Position numbers and translations under genes: made by a program. 64,000 bases of DNA. Source: Hyphomicrobiales bacterium (GTDB lineage: Bacteria > Pseudomonadota > Alphaproteobacteria > Parvibaculales > Parvibaculaceae). Below are positions 3,888-45,153 of the stretch, in pieces. Every line of letters begins with the position of its first letter. Position 1 is the first letter of the stretch. The notes under the pieces are model-generated. The model ran no database searches and was not told where the DNA came from. It saw only the letters and a list, made by a program, of their open reading frames with translations. The stretch is taken from the NCBI GenBank assembly GCA_016124805.1, contig WGND01000010.1, positions 1-64,000 on the forward strand. Reading direction: 5' to 3'.

Positions 3888-6062
3888 TTAGAACTCCGTC
3901 GTCACTGAGAACTTCGCATACATGGGAAGACCTTGGCCCAGAAGGCTTGAGCCGGTTGATTCCCAGTATTTTTCATCGGTCAGGTTTTCCGCATTCAAAC
4001 GGAAAGTGACAGGTTTGCTGTAAATCGGAGTCGTATAGCGGATGCCTGCCGAATAGGTCGTATAGCCATCAACAAAGAAGGTATTGGTGGCATTGATGGC
4101 GCGGCTGCCGACATGGAATGCACCGCCGGAAATCGCCAAACCTTCAACCATGGGCAAACGATATTCGAGATAAACAGACCCTGTAAATTTGGCCGAGTTT
4201 TCGACGCGCTTGCCGGCCAGATCTGTTGCGCCTGATTTGCCACTGAGTGCCTTCGCATCAAGAAAAAGCGCACTGGTGTAGATTGAGAGGTCCTTCGTGA
4301 TTTCGCCAGTCGCGCTCAGCTCCCAGCCTTTATATTTCTGAAGACCGCTGTTCACATATGTGTTGCTCGTGGAGTCCAGAAAGGAATTGGGGCGCTCAAT
4401 CGAGAAATAGGCCGCCGTAAGCAACAGATCCTTGATCGGCGAGACTTTTACGCCGAATTCCTTCTGCTTGGTCACACCGGCAGGCAATGTCTCACCTGCG
4501 TTGGTGGCGGCAGCGGGCGCAACGCCCCCAGATTCTAGGCCTTCAATGTAAGTTGCATAGACGCTCGCCCAATCAAAGGGCTTGAGAACAAGGCCAACGG
4601 AGGGAGAGTTTGCACTTTTCTCATAGGCGGATGTTTTGCTCACATCCGAATAGTCTGTATGACGGATGCCGAGCATCAGCGTCGCCCACTCATCATATTT
4701 GATGCTGTCGAAGACATAATATCCCTTGTCCACAATCTTGGATGGATTGGGAACCGTGCTGGAGGTGAGGGCCACCTCAGGCGGATCAATCGGATTGTAG
4801 AGATTGGTATTGTAGAAAGAGGATGCTGTGGTCGGCACGCGGCTGACGCGGTCATTTTGCGAATAGCCGAAGACGACCTCATGCTCAAATGGTCCTGTCT
4901 CCACAACGCCGGCCAGCTCACCACGATAGGTGATGTTCTGATAATAGTTGCCCGGTGTGCGCTCATAATAAACGCGGCCGTTGCCCGTGGCCTGCTGGGT
5001 CGCCGAATTGCCTTCCCAGTAGAAGGCGGAATAGCGGCGATCACGCTCCAGGACCGACAGGCCTGTATCAAACGACACCGACCAGGCCGATGTCAGGTTA
5101 TATTGGGTGTGGAGGAGCACGTTTGCCTCCTCGCCAACCGCATACATCCATTTGCCGCCAACATTGTGGCTGGAATCGAGTAGCTGCGGCAATGCTGTGG
5201 CTGTGGAACGCACCGAATATCCCGTCGGCTCAGTAATCTTCTTGTAGATATATTCGCCATCAACGGTCACGAAGAACTTGTCGTTGGGCTTCCAGTCAAA
5301 AGCGGCCGAGATGAAGTGCTTATGACCGTCGGTGCGATCGACGCCGATATCCACTTTCGAAATATTTTCATTGATCCGAAGACCGTAATTTCCCCAACTG
5401 CGGCTCCAGTCCACAGACTGGCCATATGCCCCATTGCTGTTGCCCAGCAATGTTACATTCGTGATCGGATTCTTGGTTGGTCGTTTCGTGGTCAGATTGA
5501 TGATGCCGGATGGCGTCGTAAACCCGTAATAGAGGGCTGATGCCCCCTTGAGCACCTCAACGCGGTCCTTGTTCTCGACCGGCATGTCGATGAGATTGAT
5601 GATCGGCAGCACGCCGTTCATGCGGTAGTTGCCGCGGTTTTCAACCACCAGGCCGCGAATGGCCATATTGTTGTAGATAGCTGAGTTGATCTGGGCCGAT
5701 GTCACACCTGCGGAATTGCGCAGTGCATCAAGCAGAGATGTCGCCTGCTGTGACTCCATAAGAGCCTGCGGAATGACACTGACGGTCAATGGCGTGTCGA
5801 TCACACGGGCGTTGCGGAATGTCCCCGCCTGCACATAGTCGGCGCCGAAACTGCTGGGCCGGTCGGCCGTCACGATAATCTGCGGCAGCACGACACCTTC
5901 ATCGACGACTTCAGCGTCATCAGAAGCTTTAGCTGACTCATCGGCAGGCGCCGGGTCGGCGGCCATGGCACTTGGCACCAGGGCAGTTGTTGAAAGAAGG
6001 AAGGTCAACAAGGCGGCTGTTAGTGGGCTTTTGCCGCTGCGCTTGGTCATGTAACTCATCAT
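3888..6062 (-). CDS. TonB-dependent siderophore receptor
   Basis: This 724-residue outer-membrane protein has a signal peptide (cleavage near PSAMAADP) and a probable TonB box in LPQIIVTADRP. The plug domain (about residues 75-190) has SVIPQALMESQQATSLLDAL, MAIRGLVVENRGNYRMNGV and RVEVLKGASALYYG. A long beta-barrel ends in VTTEF with the terminal aromatic residue needed for barrel assembly. Plug motifs match the FhuA/FhuE/FpvA-type ferric-siderophore family; the ligand cannot be told from sequence. tonB and exbB lie in the same locus. A Fur-box-like site lies about 160 bases upstream of the start, suggesting iron repression. Confidence 0.93.
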   Translation of the reverse strand: MMSYMTKRSGKSPLTAALLTFLLSTTALVPSAMAADPAPADESAKASDDAEVVDEGVVLPQIIVTADRPSSFGADYVQAGTFRNARVIDTPLTVSVIPQALMESQQATSLLDALRNSAGVTSAQINSAIYNNMAIRGLVVENRGNYRMNGVLPIINLIDMPVENKDRVEVLKGASALYYGFTTPSGIINLTTKRPTKNPITNVTLLGNSNGAYGQSVDWSRSWGNYGLRINENISKVDIGVDRTDGHKHFISAAFDWKPNDKFFVTVDGEYIYKKITEPTGYSVRSTATALPQLLDSSHNVGGKWMYAVGEEANVLLHTQYNLTSAWSVSFDTGLSVLERDRRYSAFYWEGNSATQQATGNGRVYYERTPGNYYQNITYRGELAGVVETGPFEHEVVFGYSQNDRVSRVPTTASSFYNTNLYNPIDPPEVALTSSTVPNPSKIVDKGYYVFDSIKYDEWATLMLGIRHTDYSDVSKTSAYEKSANSPSVGLVLKPFDWASVYATYIEGLESGGVAPAAATNAGETLPAGVTKQKEFGVKVSPIKDLLLTAAYFSIERPNSFLDSTSNTYVNSGLQKYKGWELSATGEITKDLSIYTSALFLDAKALSGKSGATDLAGKRVENSAKFTGSVYLEYRLPMVEGLAISGGAFHVGSRAINATNTFFVDGYTTYSAGIRYTTPIYSKPVTFRLNAENLTDEKYWESTGSSLLGQGLPMYAKFSVTTEF

Positions 6063-35440: not shown

Positions 35441-35569
35441 AAACAAAAGGGTGAGCCGTGGCTCACCCTTTGATTTTATGCCCTAAAGGCTTGTTAACGG
35501 CTGCTCGGCCCGGAGGCTTTCGCTGACGGTCCACGATTTCCTATCGGCTAAAACAAGATCGTATCGACA
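35441..35569 (-). ncRNA. tracrRNA of the type II-C CRISPR-Cas9 system
   Basis: On the minus strand, AGCCGATAGGAAATCGTGGA and the next two bases (35549 down to 35528) are complementary to the CRISPR repeat over 22 bp, with one G-U pair. After a short bulge, GCGA re-pairs with the repeat's 5' UUGC, giving the interrupted duplex that Cas9 recognises. The tail contains a possible nexus around AAGCCUUUAGGGC and ends in a 12-bp terminator stem (35446-35471) followed by TTTTGTTTT. The promoter below predicts a start near 35569, about 129 nt in all. It is transcribed away from cas9. It guides crRNA maturation with RNase III and Cas9 loading. Confidence 0.88.
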
Positions 35570-35575
35570 AGAACA

Positions 35576-35604
35576 AATATATGAGCAAAGCACAGGATAG
35601 GCAA
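35576..35604 (-). promoter_or_regulatory. Promoter of the tracrRNA gene
   Basis: On the minus strand, TTGCCT (35604-35599) and TATATT (35581-35576) are 17 bases apart. Predicted initiation is about 14-16 bases before the anti-repeat. Confidence 0.65.
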
Positions 35605-35664: not shown

Positions 35665-35700
35665 ACAAAAAAGGAGGGTTAGCTGCAACTAACCCTCCTT
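35665..35700 (-). terminator. Strong hairpin terminator upstream of the tracrRNA gene
   Basis: AAGGAGGGTTAG (35671-35682) and CTAACCCTCCTT (35689-35700) form a perfect 12-bp stem with a six-base loop. On the minus strand it is followed by TTTTTTG, a good terminator; the plus-strand tail is poorer. It would end a minus-strand transcript coming from the solitary-repeat region and insulate the tracrRNA promoter. Confidence 0.75.
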
Positions 35701-35872
35701 TCGTTTGATCAAAGTAATATCGCTACCGGAAGTTTATAGTCCGCCGCTTGGCAGACTCCAGAGGCCGTTCCGGCCCTGATTTTGAGCACTCAATCCTCCT
35801 TTCTGAGTCGGCACTCACAGGCCAACTCTGTATCCGGACAAATTATCCAAGAAGGCCCATCCTTCTTTTCAA

Positions 35873-35902
35873 ATTGGAGCGGCAAGAACTTGTCGCTCCA
35901 AT
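35873..35902. terminator. Hairpin beside the solitary degenerate repeat
   Basis: ATTGGAGCG (35873-35881) and CGCTCCAAT (35894-35902) form a 9-bp stem with an inner CAAG/CTTG pairing. On the minus strand it follows the degenerate repeat by about 15 bases and is trailed by TTTGAAAAG, so it could act as a weak terminator or as a 3' structure of that RNA. A second hairpin (AAGAAGG/CCTTCTT) lies at 35849-35867. Confidence 0.45.
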
Positions 35903-35917
35903 TACCTATTCTCCAGA

Positions 35918-35976
35918 GAGCAAACCGACAGGAAATCGCGGACCAGCCGCAACCACGTACTCTTCTTAAAAGGGTT
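35918..35976 (-). ncRNA. Candidate crRNA-like RNA: solitary degenerate repeat with guide-like 5' part
   Basis: The 36 bases at 35918-35953 match the array repeat at 29 positions, and 24 consecutive bases at the guide-proximal end are identical. The two changes inside the tracrRNA-paired part (A to G, C to U on the RNA) keep pairing as G-U wobbles, so the 22-bp duplex with tracrRNA is preserved. The promoter at 35983-36012 predicts a start at 35976/35975, placing a 22-23 nt guide-like stretch (to 35954) directly before the repeat. Nineteen bases of that stretch recur at 36034-36052, before cas9. It could be an autoregulatory guide or an array remnant; expression is not shown. Confidence 0.5.
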
Positions 35977-35982
35977 CGTTGC

Positions 35983-36012
35983 ATTAGAACCGATTCTGTG
36001 GCGGAATGTCAA
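35983..36012 (-). promoter_or_regulatory. Predicted promoter of the crRNA-like RNA
   Basis: On the minus strand, TTGACA (36012-36007, a perfect -35) and TCTAAT (35988-35983, five of six) are separated by 18 bases. Initiation 6-8 bases downstream falls at the start of the guide-like sequence. Confidence 0.55.
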
Positions 36013-36028
36013 AGAACCAGTATTTTGC

Positions 36029-36059
36029 TTGATACCCTTTTAAGAGAGTACGATAGGAT
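36029..36059 (+). promoter_or_regulatory. Probable cas9 promoter overlapping the guide-like match
   Basis: TTGATA (36029-36034) is a good -35. Possible -10 elements are GATAGG (36052-36057) or TAGGAT (36054-36059), neither strong. The sequence ACCCTTTTAAGAGAGTACG (36034-36052) fills the spacer and repeats, with one base deleted, the guide-like stretch encoded at 35956-35975 on the other strand. The leader to the cas9 start is about 90 bases. Confidence 0.4.
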
Positions 36060-36154
36060 AAAATATAAGTTAGAGCAGACAACTATGGGACAAAATCTCG
36101 ATTGGACTTCTAGATGCCTCTTGGTGGGCCTCTTATAAGTGAGAGAAAACACAT

Positions 36155-39100
36155 ATGCGTTACCGGCTCGGCCTAGACCTCGGCACCAATTCCATCGGCT
36201 GGTGGATGGTGGAACTCGATAAAGACGGTATCCCCTGCGGTTCCCTTGGCGGCGGCTCGCGCATCTTCAGTGATGGCCGTAATCCGAAAGACCAGTCGTC
36301 GCTTGCCGTTGAACGGCGTGTGCCGCGCGGCATGAGACGGCGACGGGACCGCTATCTTGACCGCCGTTCCGGCCTGATGGGTCTGCTCATTGCTTTTGGT
36401 CTGATGCCCGACGACGAAGCGGAGCGCAAGGCGCTGGAAGGGCTCGATCCCTATGCGCTTCGAGCCGCTGCGCTCGACCGCGGGCTCCGCCCGCATGAAC
36501 TTGGCCGCGCCTTGTTCCACCTCAATCAAAGACGCGGGTTTAAATCCAACCGCAAAACAGACAGCAGTGAGGACGATAAAGAGAGCGGTATCGTCAAGGA
36601 ACGCATCGGCGAATTGCATCGGCTGATGGAAAAAGCCAATGCCCGGACGCTTGGTGAATTCCTACACAAGCGCCACCTCAAAGGGCGCATGGTGCGGGCG
36701 CGGCCCGAAGCTGGCTTCTATCCCGACCGCAAAATGTATGAAGATGAATTCGATGCAATCCATACCACTCAGGGATCGCATCAGACACTGCGTCCAGAAC
36801 AGTGGGAGGCTTTGCGCGACATTATTTTTTATCAACGCCCGCTCAGGCCTGTCGATCCCGGCTGGTGCCTGCTGGAGGAAGGCAAGCCGCGTGCGCATCG
36901 CGCTTTGCCCATCACGCAAGAGTTTCGCATGGTGCAGGAGGCCAATAATCTGCGTGTGCAAAGCCCCGGCGAACCTGCGCGACGCCTCACCATGACCGAG
37001 CGCAACAAGGTGCTGGAGCACTTGCGCACCAAGAAGGAATTGAAACTTGAGGGTATGCTGAAGCTGCTCAAACTGCCATCGGGTTCGACCGTCAATCTTT
37101 TCGACGATCACCGGAGCCTGCTCAAAGGTGAAGAGACAGCCGCACGCCTGACGCATAAGGACATTTTCGGCAAAGCCTGGTTTGACCTCTCAATGGAGCG
37201 CCGCACGGAGATTGTGCGCAAACTGCTCGATATTGAAAAGCCCGAAGAAATCGAACGCATTGCGCAGGCCGAATGGGGGCTTGACGAAGCGGCCGCCAAA
37301 AAGCTCGCCGGCAAAGCCCTGCCCGATGGATATGCGCGATTGAGCGAAAAAGCCATTGCCCGCCTGTTGCCCATCATGGAAACGCAAGGCCTCAATTATG
37401 CCGAAGCTGTCGCTGAAGTGCCGGAATATGGCCACCACTCGGACTTCCGTCCGGATGAAGCACGCGACTTCCTGCCCTATTATGCCGAGGTGCTGTCACG
37501 GCATTGCGTAGGCGCCGATCCGTCAAAACCCAAGGAAGACGAAACAGCCCATTTCGGGCGGCTCGCCAATCCGACGGTGCATATCGGGCTCAACCAGATC
37601 CGTCGCGTCGTCAATCGCCTGATTAAGGTGCATGGCAAGCCTGAAGAGATTGTCGTGGAACTCGCCCGCGACCTCAAAATGAACAAAGAGCAGAAAGACG
37701 AAGCGCGCAGGAAGAACAGCGCCAATGAAACCGCCAACCGCGAACGCGAAGCAAAAATCCGCGCGGCAGGCGTCGCGCCTTCACCGCATCTGCTGCGCAA
37801 GCTCCGCCTCTGGGAGGAGCAAAAGGTTGGTACAGCGCATCTCTGTCCCTTCACCGGTGATGCCATTTCATTCGAGATGGCCATCGGCGCCGCGACTGAA
37901 ATCGAGCACATCCTGCCCTTCTCGCGCACACTGGATGATTCCATGGCCAACAAGGCGCTTTGCCTGCGCGAAGCAAACCGGGCCAAGCGGGACCGTGCGC
38001 CGCATGAAGCTTTTCAGAACAATCCAACAATCGGCGGACGGAAATATGTCTATGACGACATTCTGTTTCGCGCCGACAAACTGGATGGCAACAAACGCTG
38101 GCGCTTTCACGCCGATGCGATGGAGCGGTTTGAAAGCGAGGAAAGAGACTTCCTCGACCGCCAGCTCAACGAAACAAAATATCTTTCGCGTATTGCCCGC
38201 AGCTATCTGAGCCATCTTTATAATGAGAAGGCCGAAGGCCGTCTGCGCGTCCGCGCCATTCCCGGCAAGCTCACCGCCATGCTGCGCGGCAAATGGGGCC
38301 TTTCCGACCTGCTGCCTGGTCACAATCGCGCGCCTGCTCCTGACGCCCCACCGCGCAAGAACCGCGACGATCACCGCCATCACGCGCTGGATGCCTTTGT
38401 CATCGCCATGACGGACCAGCGCCTGTTGCAACTTATTTCCCAACTCAACGCGGATGCGGATCGAAAGAGGTTGATTGACGCCATTCCCGAACCCTGGGAA
38501 GAATTTGACCGAGAGGTTTTGCGCGAACAATTGGCGCGACTGACTGTCGCCCACAAAGCCGATCACGGCACGCCCGGGAAAATGGGAAAAACAACGGGCG
38601 CGCTGCATAATGATACTGCCTATGGCATTGTCGGACCCGGCAAGAAGGGCAACACTCAGGTTGTCTACCGTGTTCCACTGGCACGCTTTGCGACACCGGA
38701 TGCCCTGGACAAGAGCTTGCCTTCCATTCGAGATGTGGCGCTGCGGCACTCGCTCATCGCAGCATGGGAAGCATTCAAGGATAACCCGCCCGATCTAACA
38801 AACCCGGATGATCCAGACAGCCGGAAGAAGCCAAAGAACCTAGCAGTTGCCTTCACCGAAATGGTGGCGTCTGACGGCATTGAAATCGGCGGGCGCATCA
38901 CAAAGGTGCGACGCATCCGCATCTGCGATGAGCTGGGCGTCATCCCCATCAAAAATAAAAAAACCGGCGAGCCCTACAAGGCTTACAAACCGGATGGCAA
39001 TGAATTCGCTGAGGTCTGGGCACTGCCGGACGGATCATGGCGAACGGTCATTGTGCGGCGCTTTGATGCCAATCAACCGGGCTTTGACACAACAAACCTT

Positions 39101-39433
39101 CGTCACCACGACGATCCTGATCAACGGCTCCATCCCGCGGCCAGGAAGCTGATGCGACTTCACAATGGAGATATGGGCGCCATTGGTGAGGGGGCGGAAC
39201 GACGCATCGTGCGCGTCTGCAAGATGAGCACGGAGAACGGCAAGGAATACATTTATCTCGCCGACCACAACGAAGGCAATGTGGATGCTCGCGTGCGCGC
39301 CAAGGAACTCAAATACCTAAAGGAAAGTTGTGATGGCTTGCGCAAGAAGCAATTCCGCAAGGTGGGCGTCGATGAAATCGGTCGCCTGACCGACCCCGGA
39401 CCAAGGGCCTCCAGCGGCCCCCAAGCCGCATGA
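36155..39433 (+). CDS. cas9: Cas9 endonuclease, type II-C
   Basis: 1092 residues, a usual II-C length. RuvC-I is at the N-terminus (RLGLDLGTNSIGWW, catalytic Asp8) followed by the arginine-rich bridge helix (RRVPRGMRRRRDRYLDRR). RuvC-II is PEEIVVELARDLKMN with Glu502, HNH is ATEIEHILPFSRTLDD with His585, and RuvC-III is HRHHALDAFVIAMTD with His743 and Asp746. All catalytic residues are present, so it should be an active RNA-guided double-strand nuclease. The C-terminal part should hold the PAM-interacting domain; its PAM is unknown. Start ATG 36155 has only a weak GAGAG upstream. The stop overlaps the cas1 ATG. Confidence 0.97.
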   Translation: MRYRLGLDLGTNSIGWWMVELDKDGIPCGSLGGGSRIFSDGRNPKDQSSLAVERRVPRGMRRRRDRYLDRRSGLMGLLIAFGLMPDDEAERKALEGLDPYALRAAALDRGLRPHELGRALFHLNQRRGFKSNRKTDSSEDDKESGIVKERIGELHRLMEKANARTLGEFLHKRHLKGRMVRARPEAGFYPDRKMYEDEFDAIHTTQGSHQTLRPEQWEALRDIIFYQRPLRPVDPGWCLLEEGKPRAHRALPITQEFRMVQEANNLRVQSPGEPARRLTMTERNKVLEHLRTKKELKLEGMLKLLKLPSGSTVNLFDDHRSLLKGEETAARLTHKDIFGKAWFDLSMERRTEIVRKLLDIEKPEEIERIAQAEWGLDEAAAKKLAGKALPDGYARLSEKAIARLLPIMETQGLNYAEAVAEVPEYGHHSDFRPDEARDFLPYYAEVLSRHCVGADPSKPKEDETAHFGRLANPTVHIGLNQIRRVVNRLIKVHGKPEEIVVELARDLKMNKEQKDEARRKNSANETANREREAKIRAAGVAPSPHLLRKLRLWEEQKVGTAHLCPFTGDAISFEMAIGAATEIEHILPFSRTLDDSMANKALCLREANRAKRDRAPHEAFQNNPTIGGRKYVYDDILFRADKLDGNKRWRFHADAMERFESEERDFLDRQLNETKYLSRIARSYLSHLYNEKAEGRLRVRAIPGKLTAMLRGKWGLSDLLPGHNRAPAPDAPPRKNRDDHRHHALDAFVIAMTDQRLLQLISQLNADADRKRLIDAIPEPWEEFDREVLREQLARLTVAHKADHGTPGKMGKTTGALHNDTAYGIVGPGKKGNTQVVYRVPLARFATPDALDKSLPSIRDVALRHSLIAAWEAFKDNPPDLTNPDDPDSRKKPKNLAVAFTEMVASDGIEIGGRITKVRRIRICDELGVIPIKNKKTGEPYKAYKPDGNEFAEVWALPDGSWRTVIVRRFDANQPGFDTTNLRHHDDPDQRLHPAARKLMRLHNGDMGAIGEGAERRIVRVCKMSTENGKEYIYLADHNEGNVDARVRAKELKYLKESCDGLRKKQFRKVGVDEIGRLTDPGPRASSGPQAA

Positions 39434-40356
39434 TCGGGCGCGTCGTCGAAATCGCCAGCGACGACAGACACCTCGCGGTGTCACGGGGCTTTCTGATTGT
39501 GTCCAGCGACCGCGTGGAAGTCGCGCGCATACCACTTGATGATATCGGCGTCTTGCTCTGTCACGCGCATGGGCTGACCTATTCTAACAATCTTATGGTC
39601 GAGCTTGCCAAGCGCGGTGCTTGCGTTGTGCTTTGCGGGCCAAATCACATGCCCGTTGCCTGGCTCTGGCCGCTGGACGGACATCATGTACAAAGCCTGC
39701 GCATGCGGCATCAACTGGAAGCGGGCGCCCCACTCCGCAAGCGGCTGTGGCAAGCACTGGTGCGCGCCAAAATTGAACAGCAACAAGCCGTACTGGAAAG
39801 GCTCGGCAAACCTGACGGGGCTTTTGACTTGCTCGCGCGCAAGGTCAAATCAGGCGATCCTGAAAATGTAGAAGCCCAGGCCGCACGCCGATACTGGCCA
39901 CTCCTGATGGGCAGCTCATTTCGCCGCGACCGCGATGCGAGTGGCCCGAATGCCATGCTCAATTACGGCTATACCGTTTTGCGGGCTGGCGTTGCGCGCG
40001 CCGTCACTGCCGTCGGATTACATCCCTCCATCGGCCTGCATCACAGCAACCGCAACAATCCAATGTGCCTGGTTGATGATCTGATGGAGCCATTCCGTCC
40101 GGTCGTCGACTATCTGGTCACGCGCCTTGTGGCAAGTGGCGCGTCTGACGTGACGCCAGATGCCAAATCAGTTTTGGGACAAGTGCTGTCCTTTGACATG
40201 GCGACAGATCAGGGAACAACGCCCATCTCGACTTGCGCTGAAAGGTTGGCCTTTTCGCTCGCCCAGTCTTTCGAAACGGGGAAGCCTGATCTGTCTCTGC
40301 CTCGAACGCTCCTCCCCCTTGAAATGCCTGACATCAATGGGGTGCCTGAGGGATAA
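39430..40356 (+). CDS. cas1: Cas1 integrase of the CRISPR adaptation complex
   Basis: 308 residues overlapping the cas9 stop by four bases (ATGA). Family features are LLCHAHGLTYSNNLMVELAKRGA near residues 38-60, here only for position, and the conserved metal-site region with Glu in the AARRYWPLLMG area, His in GLHHSNRNN and acidic residues in LVDDLMEPFRPVVDYLV. With Cas2 it captures and integrates new spacers; in type II systems Cas9 and tracrRNA assist PAM selection. No cas4 or csn2 is present, which defines subtype II-C. Confidence 0.95.
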   Translation: MIGRVVEIASDDRHLAVSRGFLIVSSDRVEVARIPLDDIGVLLCHAHGLTYSNNLMVELAKRGACVVLCGPNHMPVAWLWPLDGHHVQSLRMRHQLEAGAPLRKRLWQALVRAKIEQQQAVLERLGKPDGAFDLLARKVKSGDPENVEAQAARRYWPLLMGSSFRRDRDASGPNAMLNYGYTVLRAGVARAVTAVGLHPSIGLHHSNRNNPMCLVDDLMEPFRPVVDYLVTRLVASGASDVTPDAKSVLGQVLSFDMATDQGTTPISTCAERLAFSLAQSFETGKPDLSLPRTLLPLEMPDINGVPEG

Positions 40357-40360
40357 GCCC

Positions 40361-40693
40361 ATGGCCACACTGACAGGGTATCGACTCATGTGGATGATGG
40401 TGATCTTTGATTTGCCTGTCGGAACAAAAAGGGAAAGACGGGCGGCAACACGATTCCGAAATGACTTGCTCGATCAAGGCTTCGAGATGAGCCAATTTTC
40501 GGTCTATATGCGCTTTTGCGGTGGTAAGGAACAGGTCGAGACCTATACCAAACGCATCGAAAAAGCCTTGCCCAAGACGGGATTGGTCCAGATTCTCTGT
40601 TTCACAGACCGGCAATATGAGACAATTGTGTCCTTCGATGGTCGAACCCGCGAGAAAGCCAAGGAAAATCCGAATCAATATGTGCTGCTCTAG
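40361..40693 (+). CDS. cas2: Cas2, structural partner of Cas1
   Basis: 110 residues from ATG 40361, with GAGGGAT upstream and four bases between the cas1 stop and this start. It has the Cas2 ferredoxin-like start WMMVIFDLPVGTKRERRAATRFRNDL, with the conserved Asp after the first strand, and the later FSVYMR and VQILCFTDRQYE strands. It dimerises between two Cas1 dimers during spacer integration. An upstream in-frame extension to 40160 overlaps cas1 and is not coding. Confidence 0.95.
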   Translation: MATLTGYRLMWMMVIFDLPVGTKRERRAATRFRNDLLDQGFEMSQFSVYMRFCGGKEQVETYTKRIEKALPKTGLVQILCFTDRQYETIVSFDGRTREKAKENPNQYVLL

Positions 40694-40768: not shown

Positions 40769-43700
40769 AGTTTAGCCGATAGGAAATCGCGGACCAGCCG
40801 CAACGGGCGCGCCATGCGACAAGCCCGACGCCGAAGTTTAGCCGATAGGAAATCGCGGACCAGCCGCAACCTGTTCAGGCCGATCCCGATTTGATGGAAG
40901 AGTTTAGCCGATAGGAAATCGCGGACCAGCCGCAACGTCTTGCATGGGCGGCATACTCAGACTTCGAGTTTAGCCGATAGGAAATCGCGGACCAGCCGCA
41001 ACCCGTTGGCGTGGCGGTGGGTGGCGGCACGGAGTTTAGCCGATAGGAAATCGCGGACCAGCCGCAACCATTCGCGGGCAGATGTGACAGCCGACCAAAG
41101 TTTAGCCGATAGGAAATCGCGGACCAGCCGCAACCAGCCCGGCCCGACACGCGTGCAGCCCCACAGTTTAGCCGATAGGAAATCGCGGACCAGCCGCAAC
41201 GGGGACAGCAGGCTGGCAGCGATGATATTGAGTTTAGCCGATAGGAAATCGCGGACCAGCCGCAACTGGAAGGCCGCGACAACCAGGAATTTCTGGAGTT
41301 TAGCCGATAGGAAATCGCGGACCAGCCGCAACGGAAACAGATGTGAAGAAAAAGACCTATGAAGTTTAGCCGATAGGAAATCGCGGACCAGCCGCAACAG
41401 GGCGCCGTGACGGTGACTTCAGCGCCCGAGTTTAGCCGATAGGAAATCGCGGACCAGCCGCAACCCCGCTGGGCCGCTGTAACAAGTGCTGGCAAGTTTA
41501 GCCGATAGGAAATCGCGGACCAGCCGCAACATGGCGACACACTTACCGCCATCACCCTGCAGTTTAGCCGATAGGAAATCGCGGACCAGCCGCAACATAT
41601 GCTTGCGAAGGGATCAGCCTCATTGCAGTTTAGCCGATAGGAAATCGCGGACCAGCCGCAACTGGCAGGCACTCAACCTGTTACCGCGCGGCAGTTTAGC
41701 CGATAGGAAATCGCGGACCAGCCGCAACTCGGCTTTGCGGCCAGACAGATTATCCCTAAGTTTAGCCGATAGGAAATCGCGGACCAGCCGCAACAGGTCC
41801 TGCGCGCGATCAACATCATCCGCCAGTTTAGCCGATAGGAAATCGCGGACCAGCCGCAACTCGCGGCGGGCGAATTCAGCGTGTGATAGTAGTTTAGCCG
41901 ATAGGAAATCGCGGACCAGCCGCAACTGCGGCGCTCGGTGGTGGCGGCATTCTTCGAGTTTAGCCGATAGGAAATCGCGGACCAGCCGCAACATGGTGTT
42001 TTCACGCCGATGGTCAGCGAAAAGTTTAGCCGATAGGAAATCGCGGACCAGCCGCAACTCATCCACCGGCAGACCGCCTGTGCCGGTCAGTTTAGCCGAT
42101 AGGAAATCGCGGACCAGCCGCAACGGATTCAACCGTCTCCAAAATGTTTATCGAAGTTTAGCCGATAGGAAATCGCGGACCAGCCGCAACTGCTTTGATG
42201 TGCTTGACCATGTAGGGGACAGTTTAGCCGATAGGAAATCGCGGACCAGCCGCAACAGAGCGTGGCAGCGGGCGGGGTGAGCGTGCAGTTTAGCCGATAG
42301 GAAATCGCGGACCAGCCGCAACAAAGCGTGCGGCCCAGCCCCTCAAGGGAGAAGTTTAGCCGATAGGAAATCGCGGACCAGCCGCAACCCCGGCCTCAGC
42401 CTATATGCCTGCCCTGCCAGTTTAGCCGATAGGAAATCGCGGACCAGCCGCAACCGCGCGCCCTTGTGGCGCGCGGTAAGGGTGAGTTTAGCCGATAGGA
42501 AATCGCGGACCAGCCGCAACCCCGCTGGGCCGCTGTAACAAGTGCTGGCAGTTTAGCCGATAGGAAATCGCGGACCAGCCGCAACCTGACAAGCGACATC
42601 ACCATTACCGAGCTGAGTTTAGCCGATAGGAAATCGCGGACCAGCCGCAACCTTGTTTGATGACGCGCTTTATCCCGCCACAGTTTAGCCGATAGGAAAT
42701 CGCGGACCAGCCGCAACATGACGCGGCGGCCAGCAGCGGGGAAGATAAGTTTAGCCGATAGGAAATCGCGGACCAGCCGCAACTGGCCCGCCAGCTCGGC
42801 GGGGGGCGGGATGAGTTTAGCCGATAGGAAATCGCGGACCAGCCGCAACTAAAGGCGCCGCGATGAAAAAACCGGATCGAGTTTAGCCGATAGGAAATCG
42901 CGGACCAGCCGCAACATGGCGTTTCGCGGGGCGTAAAATCCCAGAGTTTAGCCGATAGGAAATCGCGGACCAGCCGCAACTTGATTGTGTCCCAGTTTTT
43001 CCAGAGCAGAGTTTAGCCGATAGGAAATCGCGGACCAGCCGCAACTCGCGGCCTTCCATGGCCATGGCCTGCAAGAGTTTAGCCGATAGGAAATCGCGGA
43101 CCAGCCGCAACATATCGACAGCTATGGCGGCGTGGTCTCGGAGTTTAGCCGATAGGAAATCGCGGACCAGCCGCAACTCAGGCGTGGCCAACATGAGTGG
43201 TGCTGAAGTTTAGCCGATAGGAAATCGCGGACCAGCCGCAACTGGCCTGCAAGTGATCAACCACGAGCCCGGAGTTTAGCCGATAGGAAATCGCGGACCA
43301 GCCGCAACATGGCGACACACTTACCGCCATCACCCTGCAGTTTAGCCGATAGGAAATCGCGGACCAGCCGCAACACACCCGCGCGCTGGCATAACGCCGA
43401 GGCGAGTTTAGCCGATAGGAAATCGCGGACCAGCCGCAACCTGCTCAACAGCATCGCGCGCGATCCGCTGAGTTTAGCCGATAGGAAATCGCGGACCAGC
43501 CGCAACTCGTTGCGCTGTGTAGAGAATCAGGGCGAGAGTTTAGCCGATAGGAAATCGCGGACCAGCCGCAACAGGCTGTCGCGGCCGCCGCGAGCTTCGA
43601 CAAGTTTAGCCGATAGGAAATCGCGGACCAGCCGCAACTTCTCCTATATGCTTAGCGGGAAGCATGGAGTTTAGCCGATAGGAAATCGCGGACCAGCCGC

Positions 43701-45153
43701 AACCCGTCAAACATAGCGGGCATGCGCTACACAGTTTAGCCGATAGGAAATCGCGGACCAGCCGCAACATGGCGTCGTGAGCAGCACGAGTGGCAGCCAG
43801 TTTAGCCGATAGGAAATCGCGGACCAGCCGCAACCACGGCTTGACGCGGCCCGCGCCACGGCGGAGTTTAGCCGATAGGAAATCGCGGACCAGCCGCAAC
43901 AAGCCATTGCGGCGGCTGATCTGCCCGACGAGTTTAGCCGATAGGAAATCGCGGACCAGCCGCAACCCGTGACTGCCAGCCCCGGCAATGGTGATCAGTT
44001 TAGCCGATAGGAAATCGCGGACCAGCCGCAACGCGCTGTCTGCTGCGCCGCGACGATCTCCCAGTTTAGCCGATAGGAAATCGCGGACCAGCCGCAACCC
44101 ACACCCTGCGGCACCACCCGCTGCTCGCAGTTTAGCCGATAGGAAATCGCGGACCAGCCGCAACTGCCCCTTTTGCGGCGGTGACCGCAAGTCGAGTTTA
44201 GCCGATAGGAAATCGCGGACCAGCCGCAACTGGATTGGCACACTCGCCTTTTTGGCCACAGTTTAGCCGATAGGAAATCGCGGACCAGCCGCAACGTAAA
44301 GGGCATGGTCAGGTCGAGCCAGTTCAGTTTAGCCGATAGGAAATCGCGGACCAGCCGCAACTGCGGACCAACATGGGCTGTGCGGCGGCCAAGTTTAGCC
44401 GATAGGAAATCGCGGACCAGCCGCAACTGTTTGAAAAAGCAGGCCTTACGCTGCCCGAGTTTAGCCGATAGGAAATCGCGGACCAGCCGCAACATGAAGA
44501 GGGCGTTGCCTATCCCAGCAAGCAGTTTAGCCGATAGGAAATCGCGGACCAGCCGCAACAGGCCGACACGGCGATGATCGGTGCTGTTGAGTTTAGCCGA
44601 TAGGAAATCGCGGACCAGCCGCAACCAACCCCTCAAGCACGCGGGCAATGGTCTGAGTTTAGCCGATAGGAAATCGCGGACCAGCCGCAACTTGGGGTCC
44701 ATCTCGAAATCAAGCGCCAGCAGTTTAGCCGATAGGAAATCGCGGACCAGCCGCAACATGATCTTTTCGTCGTCCGTGAGCCTGACGAGTTTAGCCGATA
44801 GGAAATCGCGGACCAGCCGCAACCTGAGCTGGTATCGCTGCGCCGCGCTCAATAGTTTAGCCGATAGGAAATCGCGGACCAGCCGCAACACTGCCTTTGT
44901 TCAAGTCCCGAATTGGGCTAGTTTAGCCGATAGGAAATCGCGGACCAGCCGCAACCTCATTTTTCGGCGCCCAAATTCAATATCAAGTTTAGCCGATAGG
45001 AAATCGCGGACCAGCCGCAACGGCCCTAGACAACTCCGCGGTGAGGGCAAAAGTTTAGCCGATAGGAAATCGCGGACCAGCCGCAACGCGCCAGGCAGAC
45101 CTGTGCGCCATGAATGCAGTTTAGCCGATAGGAAATCGCGGACCAGCCGCAAC
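40769..45153 (-). CRISPR. CRISPR array, type II-C, 67 repeats and 66 spacers, read from the minus strand
   Basis: The 36-bp repeat begins AGTTTAGCCGATAGG and ends CCAGCCGCAAC on the plus strand and showed no variation at the start sites I checked. Stepping through every repeat start gives 59 spacers of 30 bp and seven of 29 bp. On the minus strand the repeat runs GTTGCGG...GGCTAAACT, the polarity of other II-C repeats, whose 3' ends carry a -10-like element. With the tracrRNA complementarity, this puts crRNA transcription towards the cas genes and the leader beyond 45153. Spacers 11 and 27 are the same apart from one terminal base, and spacers 12 and 39 are identical. Confidence 0.98.

Follow-up and report, generated by a model that had tools for sequence, protein, structure and literature searches.

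A solitary CRISPR repeat between tracrRNA and cas9 in a type II-C locus, with a guide-like stretch resembling DNA upstream of cas9: a possible Cas9 autorepressor

The window, the whole 64,000-nucleotide stretch of DNA analysed here, comes from a Parvibaculum-like genome (G000); a relative of its cas9 at 83-84% has been deposited as Parvibaculum sp. The window holds an intact type II-C CRISPR-Cas locus (Table 1), consisting of cas9, cas1, cas2, a tracrRNA and an array, with no further adaptation gene. Only cas1 and cas2 lie between cas9 and the array, which is downstream of cas9-cas1-cas2 and is read on the minus strand. All 67 array repeats are identical, both ends included, and two spacers are each present twice (at 41465 and 42521, and at 41531 and 43309), which points to internal duplications of the array. 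On the far side of the tracrRNA, a gene for a sulfotransferase-domain protein (PF00685; 34272-35165) adjoins the tracrRNA terminator.

Table 1. Positions of the features discussed, in window coordinates except for the last row
Feature	Position	Strand	Remarks
tracrRNA (approximate extent)	about 35565 to 35440	-	upstream of cas9
tracrRNA terminator	35446..35471	-	11-pair stem, then TGTTTTGG on minus
tracrRNA anti-repeat	35517..35552	-	complementary to array repeat; conserved in relatives
Predicted tracrRNA promoter, TTGCCT-17-TATATT	35576..35604	-	9/12 consensus; about as many expected by chance
Strong hairpin, then TTTTTTG	35667..35701	-	likely terminator; hairpin on both strands; unlisted by terminator scan
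10-bp hairpin downstream of solitary repeat	35872..35903	-	weak T tail
Solitary degenerate repeat, 36 nt	35918..35953	- (crRNA sense)	alone between tracrRNA and cas9
Guide-like stretch, 23 nt	35954..35976	-	start depends on predicted promoter
30-nt spacer equivalent of guide region	35954-35983	-	
Possible promoter of solitary-repeat RNA, TTGACA-18-TCTAAT	35983..36012	-	sequence call; missed by consensus scan
Possible cas9 promoter, TTGATA-19-TAGGAT	36029..36059	+	sequence only; missed by consensus scan
Target-like copy of guide stretch	36034..36052	+	local alignment, 0/3000 shuffles
Register-matched PAM-side flank, AGGATAAAAT	36055..36064	+	beside target copy
cas9	36155..39433	+	1092 aa, type II
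cas1	39430..40356	+	TIGR03639, type II Cas1
cas2	40361..40693	+	TIGR01573; start chosen by hand
CRISPR array	40769..45153	-	67 identical 36-nt repeats, mostly 30-nt spacers
L039 solitary repeat	5775-5810		same side and same orientation as in the window; tracrRNA-distal end also altered

The solitary repeat, which a sequence-only reading of the window had already picked out, differs from the 67 array repeats at seven positions, all of them within the tracrRNA-distal 12 nt, and its guide-side 24 nt are identical to the array repeat (a distribution with a chance of 9e-5 if the changes fell at random). That reading had also held that the changes preserve pairing with the tracrRNA through G-U, and duplex prediction agrees: the duplex is unbroken through two G-U pairs, at -47.7 kcal/mol compared with -53.4 kcal/mol for the array repeat. 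Genome-wide, the only copies of the repeat outside the array are the solitary repeat and the anti-repeat, and an Rfam search gave no match above the gathering score. The possibility of another degenerate repeat at 35983-36018, on the upstream side of the guide, which would have made the element a mini-array, was rejected; the 13/36 matches, with 8/13 at one end, are unconvincing after the offset had been chosen.

The guide-like stretch ACCCTTTTAAGAAGAGTACG (minus strand, 35956-35975) recurs, as had been proposed, as a near-match with a one-base bulge, ACCCTTTTAAGAGAGTACG, on the plus strand, 103-121 nt before the cas9 start. This similarity is beyond chance: the local score of 17 was reached by none of 3000 shuffles (mean 7.6, maximum 15), and the array spacers scored at most 10 at the same target. 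Both caveats attached to the original proposal are borne out by the alignment, as the bulge lies about 9 nt from the repeat and the last two guide nucleotides, adjoining the repeat (TG), mismatch the target (AT). With seed positions 1-2 mismatched and a bulge in addition, weak canonical Cas9 binding is expected. Elsewhere in the genome the guide core has one weak site only (at up to three mismatches), which speaks against a site for a general regulator, and searches of phages and viral contigs gave no convincing match to the guide.

The promoter calls, for the solitary-repeat RNA as for cas9, are tentative. The minus-strand promoter described earlier is present as written, but it fails the standard promoter scan because its -10 element is without the key A at the second position. 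The presumed cas9 promoter, between whose -35 and -10 elements the sequence-only reading placed the target, has an unusual spacing (19) and also fails the scan. Between the solitary repeat and the tracrRNA, the strong hairpin and T run (35701-35667) probably act as a terminator that separates the two RNAs, and make a separate RNA acting in trans the more likely arrangement in the window.

It had been suggested that relatives be aligned to look for joint changes in guide and target. None of the closer relatives has the element, so that an orthologous series in which to observe such covariation is lacking. In four loci of the same family (Cas9 76-84% identical), 83-250 nt separate the anti-repeat from cas9, without a solitary repeat, and more distant loci have the same compact tracrRNA-cas9 arrangement, with the exception of one, L039. 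Across the seven relatives without the element this distance is 73-250 nt, compared with 602 nt in the window and 299 nt in L039. A scan for inverted repeats in 44 cas9-upstream regions, which could miss strongly degenerate pairs, gave repeat:anti-repeat pairs for the window and L039 alone. In both, homology to the respective sister stops shortly past the anti-repeat, indicating that almost all of the DNA from there to cas9 has been replaced. Viral contigs yielded no Cas9 relatives.

L039 (PMKE01000139.1) belongs to an alphaproteobacterial metagenome-assembled genome, and its Cas9 is 64% identical to that of the window. The anatomy is alike and the guide is another one. The L039 solitary repeat pairs with its tracrRNA through a perfect 23-bp core, and the L039 guide has its match on the same strand, ahead of the L039 cas9: the last 12 guide nucleotides, CGGGACGTTGGT, align with plus-strand CGGGTCGTTGGT, about 129-140 nt before cas9, with one mismatch, directly at the guide 3' end. 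This seed match, found post hoc, was equalled by 2/2000 shuffles and by 0/108 control spacers. It is weakened by the motif CGTTGGT, further copies of which lie nearby, in part as an inverted repeat within the guide, so that the match may reflect local repetition. Outside the repeat, the window and L039 elements show no general homology beyond that of shuffles. A terminator scan between the L039 repeat and the tracrRNA scored no terminator-like site, and a joint guide-repeat-tracrRNA transcript is predicted to form a long stem between repeat and anti-repeat, as a natural single guide does; the L039 repeat and tracrRNA could yield such a guide, like tracr-L of S. pyogenes. The nearest sister found for L039 (G484; 87% over the first 492 residues) is without a solitary repeat. 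In that sister (L283, G484:C193), cas9 is broken by a stop after about 492 residues and the array begins about 1.2 kb further on, leaving too little room for cas1-cas2.

We put at about one half the probability that the window element is a natural guide directing Cas9 to its own promoter, a type II-C variant of the theme represented by tracr-L, scaRNA and CreR. For the element we infer transcription, loading, DNA binding, repression and a sensing role, as follows. A short minus-strand RNA would start just upstream of the guide-like stretch and carry about 23 guide nucleotides followed by the tracrRNA-compatible repeat. This RNA would pair with the tracrRNA, load into Cas9 and bring it to the DNA that immediately precedes cas9. 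There, the partial guide match may allow binding without effective cutting. Bound Cas9 would then lower transcription of cas9-cas1-cas2, and repression would ease whenever Cas9 is taken up by array crRNAs or anti-CRISPRs. An autoregulator would lead one to expect a further case in which another solitary repeat, placed independently, carries a guide of its own that fits the region before the local cas9, and in this respect L039 favours the crRNA-like autoregulator that the sequence-only reading put forward. However, the absence of the element from closer relatives and the mismatched seed nucleotides count against it.

Effector-guided repression of cas genes has documented precedents in tracr-L, which guides S. 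pyogenes Cas9 (type II-A), and in CreR (types I and V-A). The natural single guide tracr-L represses Pcas, and an 11-nt match suffices for this repression by SpyCas9 (PMC11417352). As with tracr-L, Cas9 and tracrRNA would here reach their own cas promoter through a partly matching guide, and in L039 the guide, repeat and tracrRNA could share one RNA. Unlike tracr-L, the present element is of type II-C and has a near-intact CRISPR repeat and a different match pattern (20 nt in the window with two PAM-side nucleotides mismatched; a 12-nt seed match in L039). In the window, moreover, the terminator-like hairpin stands between repeat and tracrRNA, so that guide and tracrRNA would share a transcript only by read-through, which is possible. 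scaRNA was described in Francisella novicida (II-B), is predicted widely in type II (PMC6199352) and occurs in N. meningitidis (II-C; PMC13431127). The window element resembles it in being a stray repeat near the tracrRNA, with a possible promoter of its own and pairing to the tracrRNA in trans (the pairing is predicted, the terminator hairpin was recognised by eye and the promoter is sub-consensus). However, known scaRNA targets are other genes, whereas the window match is upstream of cas9, and the predicted Neisseria scaRNA unit lies upstream of the array. CreRs are crRNA-like cas repressors of types I-B, I-E and V-A (PMC12737573, PMC13131331). They share with the window a CRISPR-like unit beside the cas genes whose guide partly matches the cas promoter, a likeness found at the level of sequence and with the promoter position predicted. 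The window element differs in being of type II-C and in requiring tracrRNA; the types named in the cited reviews are I and V-A alone. The account that fits best is an architecture that is scaRNA-like in the window and tracr-L-like in L039, with a CreR-like purpose. In the literature searched, outside which subscription papers lay, we found no type II-C system for which a crRNA-like cas9 autorepressor is reported.

The main rival is that the element is a relic: a spacer-repeat unit that has been left over, for instance as the degenerate end of an earlier array, with a spacer acquired from the region upstream of its own cas9, now decaying and functionless. Terminal CRISPR repeats commonly decay at one end, and all the changes in the solitary repeat are at that end. 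Furthermore, the guide-target homology stops within one spacer length, the seed and bulge mismatches resemble decay, and close relatives are without the element. However, 24/24 functional repeat nucleotides are intact although the flanking DNA is unrelated to that of the sisters, and in L039 the placement recurs, together with another guide for which a match is again present upstream of cas9 in that locus. On balance we regard a relic as rather unlikely.

Two further explanations appear improbable to us. In one, a scaRNA-like RNA acts on other genes or mRNAs, and the match upstream of cas9 is secondary. The wide prediction of scaRNAs in type II, II-C included (PMC6199352), is consistent with this, as is the N. 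meningitidis scaRNA, which acts on efeO mRNA and for which guided DNA binding is not evidenced (PMC13431127), but the genome is without a comparable second site for the guide core and the neighbouring target is much the best match. In the other, which we rate just as low, the inverted repeat serves as a hairpin in the mRNA or as an operator for a protein, and the CRISPR repeat is incidental. A plus-strand RNA spanning both arms does fold strongly (-40 kcal/mol, z -5.3). Yet cas9 mRNA from the presumed promoter would be without the first arm, a scan further upstream found no consensus plus-strand promoter, the motif is not repeated elsewhere in the genome, and one arm occupies the guide position of a repeat.

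If the autorepressor reading is correct, this crRNA-like version in type II-C would mean that Cas9 autoregulation arises repeatedly through different architectures. It would also provide a natural binding-without-cutting guide for a II-C Cas9, and the sensing of crRNA load or of anti-CRISPRs would become testable in II-C systems. More speculatively, and with the odds against it in our view, alphaproteobacterial II-C systems may repeatedly have gained a Cas9 autorepressor by replacement of the short tracrRNA-cas9 spacer with DNA containing one CRISPR repeat. It would take two forms: in the window a separate crRNA-like RNA that relies on the tracrRNA in trans, in L039 a fused natural single guide. 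The guide and the cas9-upstream target would change together.

The register-matched flanks on the PAM side are AGGATAAA in the window (at 36055) and GGGAAAGA in L039. Window array spacers had no match in phages, and a search of plasmids with the majority of the spacers from related arrays was likewise without a match. When 108 spacers from four related arrays were compared with 40 genomes of the family, and the window spacers with 385 genomes of the class, a single near-perfect protospacer outside an array was found. Here an array spacer of a relative matches, at 28/30 nt, an M15-peptidase gene that lies in a phage-like region of the genome carrying that array (G025:C7:749177-749206; L157). 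The flank of this protospacer, AGGACAAC, resembles that in the window and, less so, that in L039. The match is possibly a self-targeting spacer, and as the protospacer lies in the spacer's own genome, a working PAM may be absent. Partial protospacers of the window array in Mu-like phages have mixed flanks, without one like that in G025. The genome of the window also includes a 37-kb contig of a Mu-like phage or prophage (G000:C15; L154, L155), with a Mu transposase, a gpT head protein and Baseplate_J. Reversed array spacers had no match of 24 or more on this contig, which has mismatched copies (24-26/30) of at least six of the array spacers; the window array seems to be directed at Mu-like phages.
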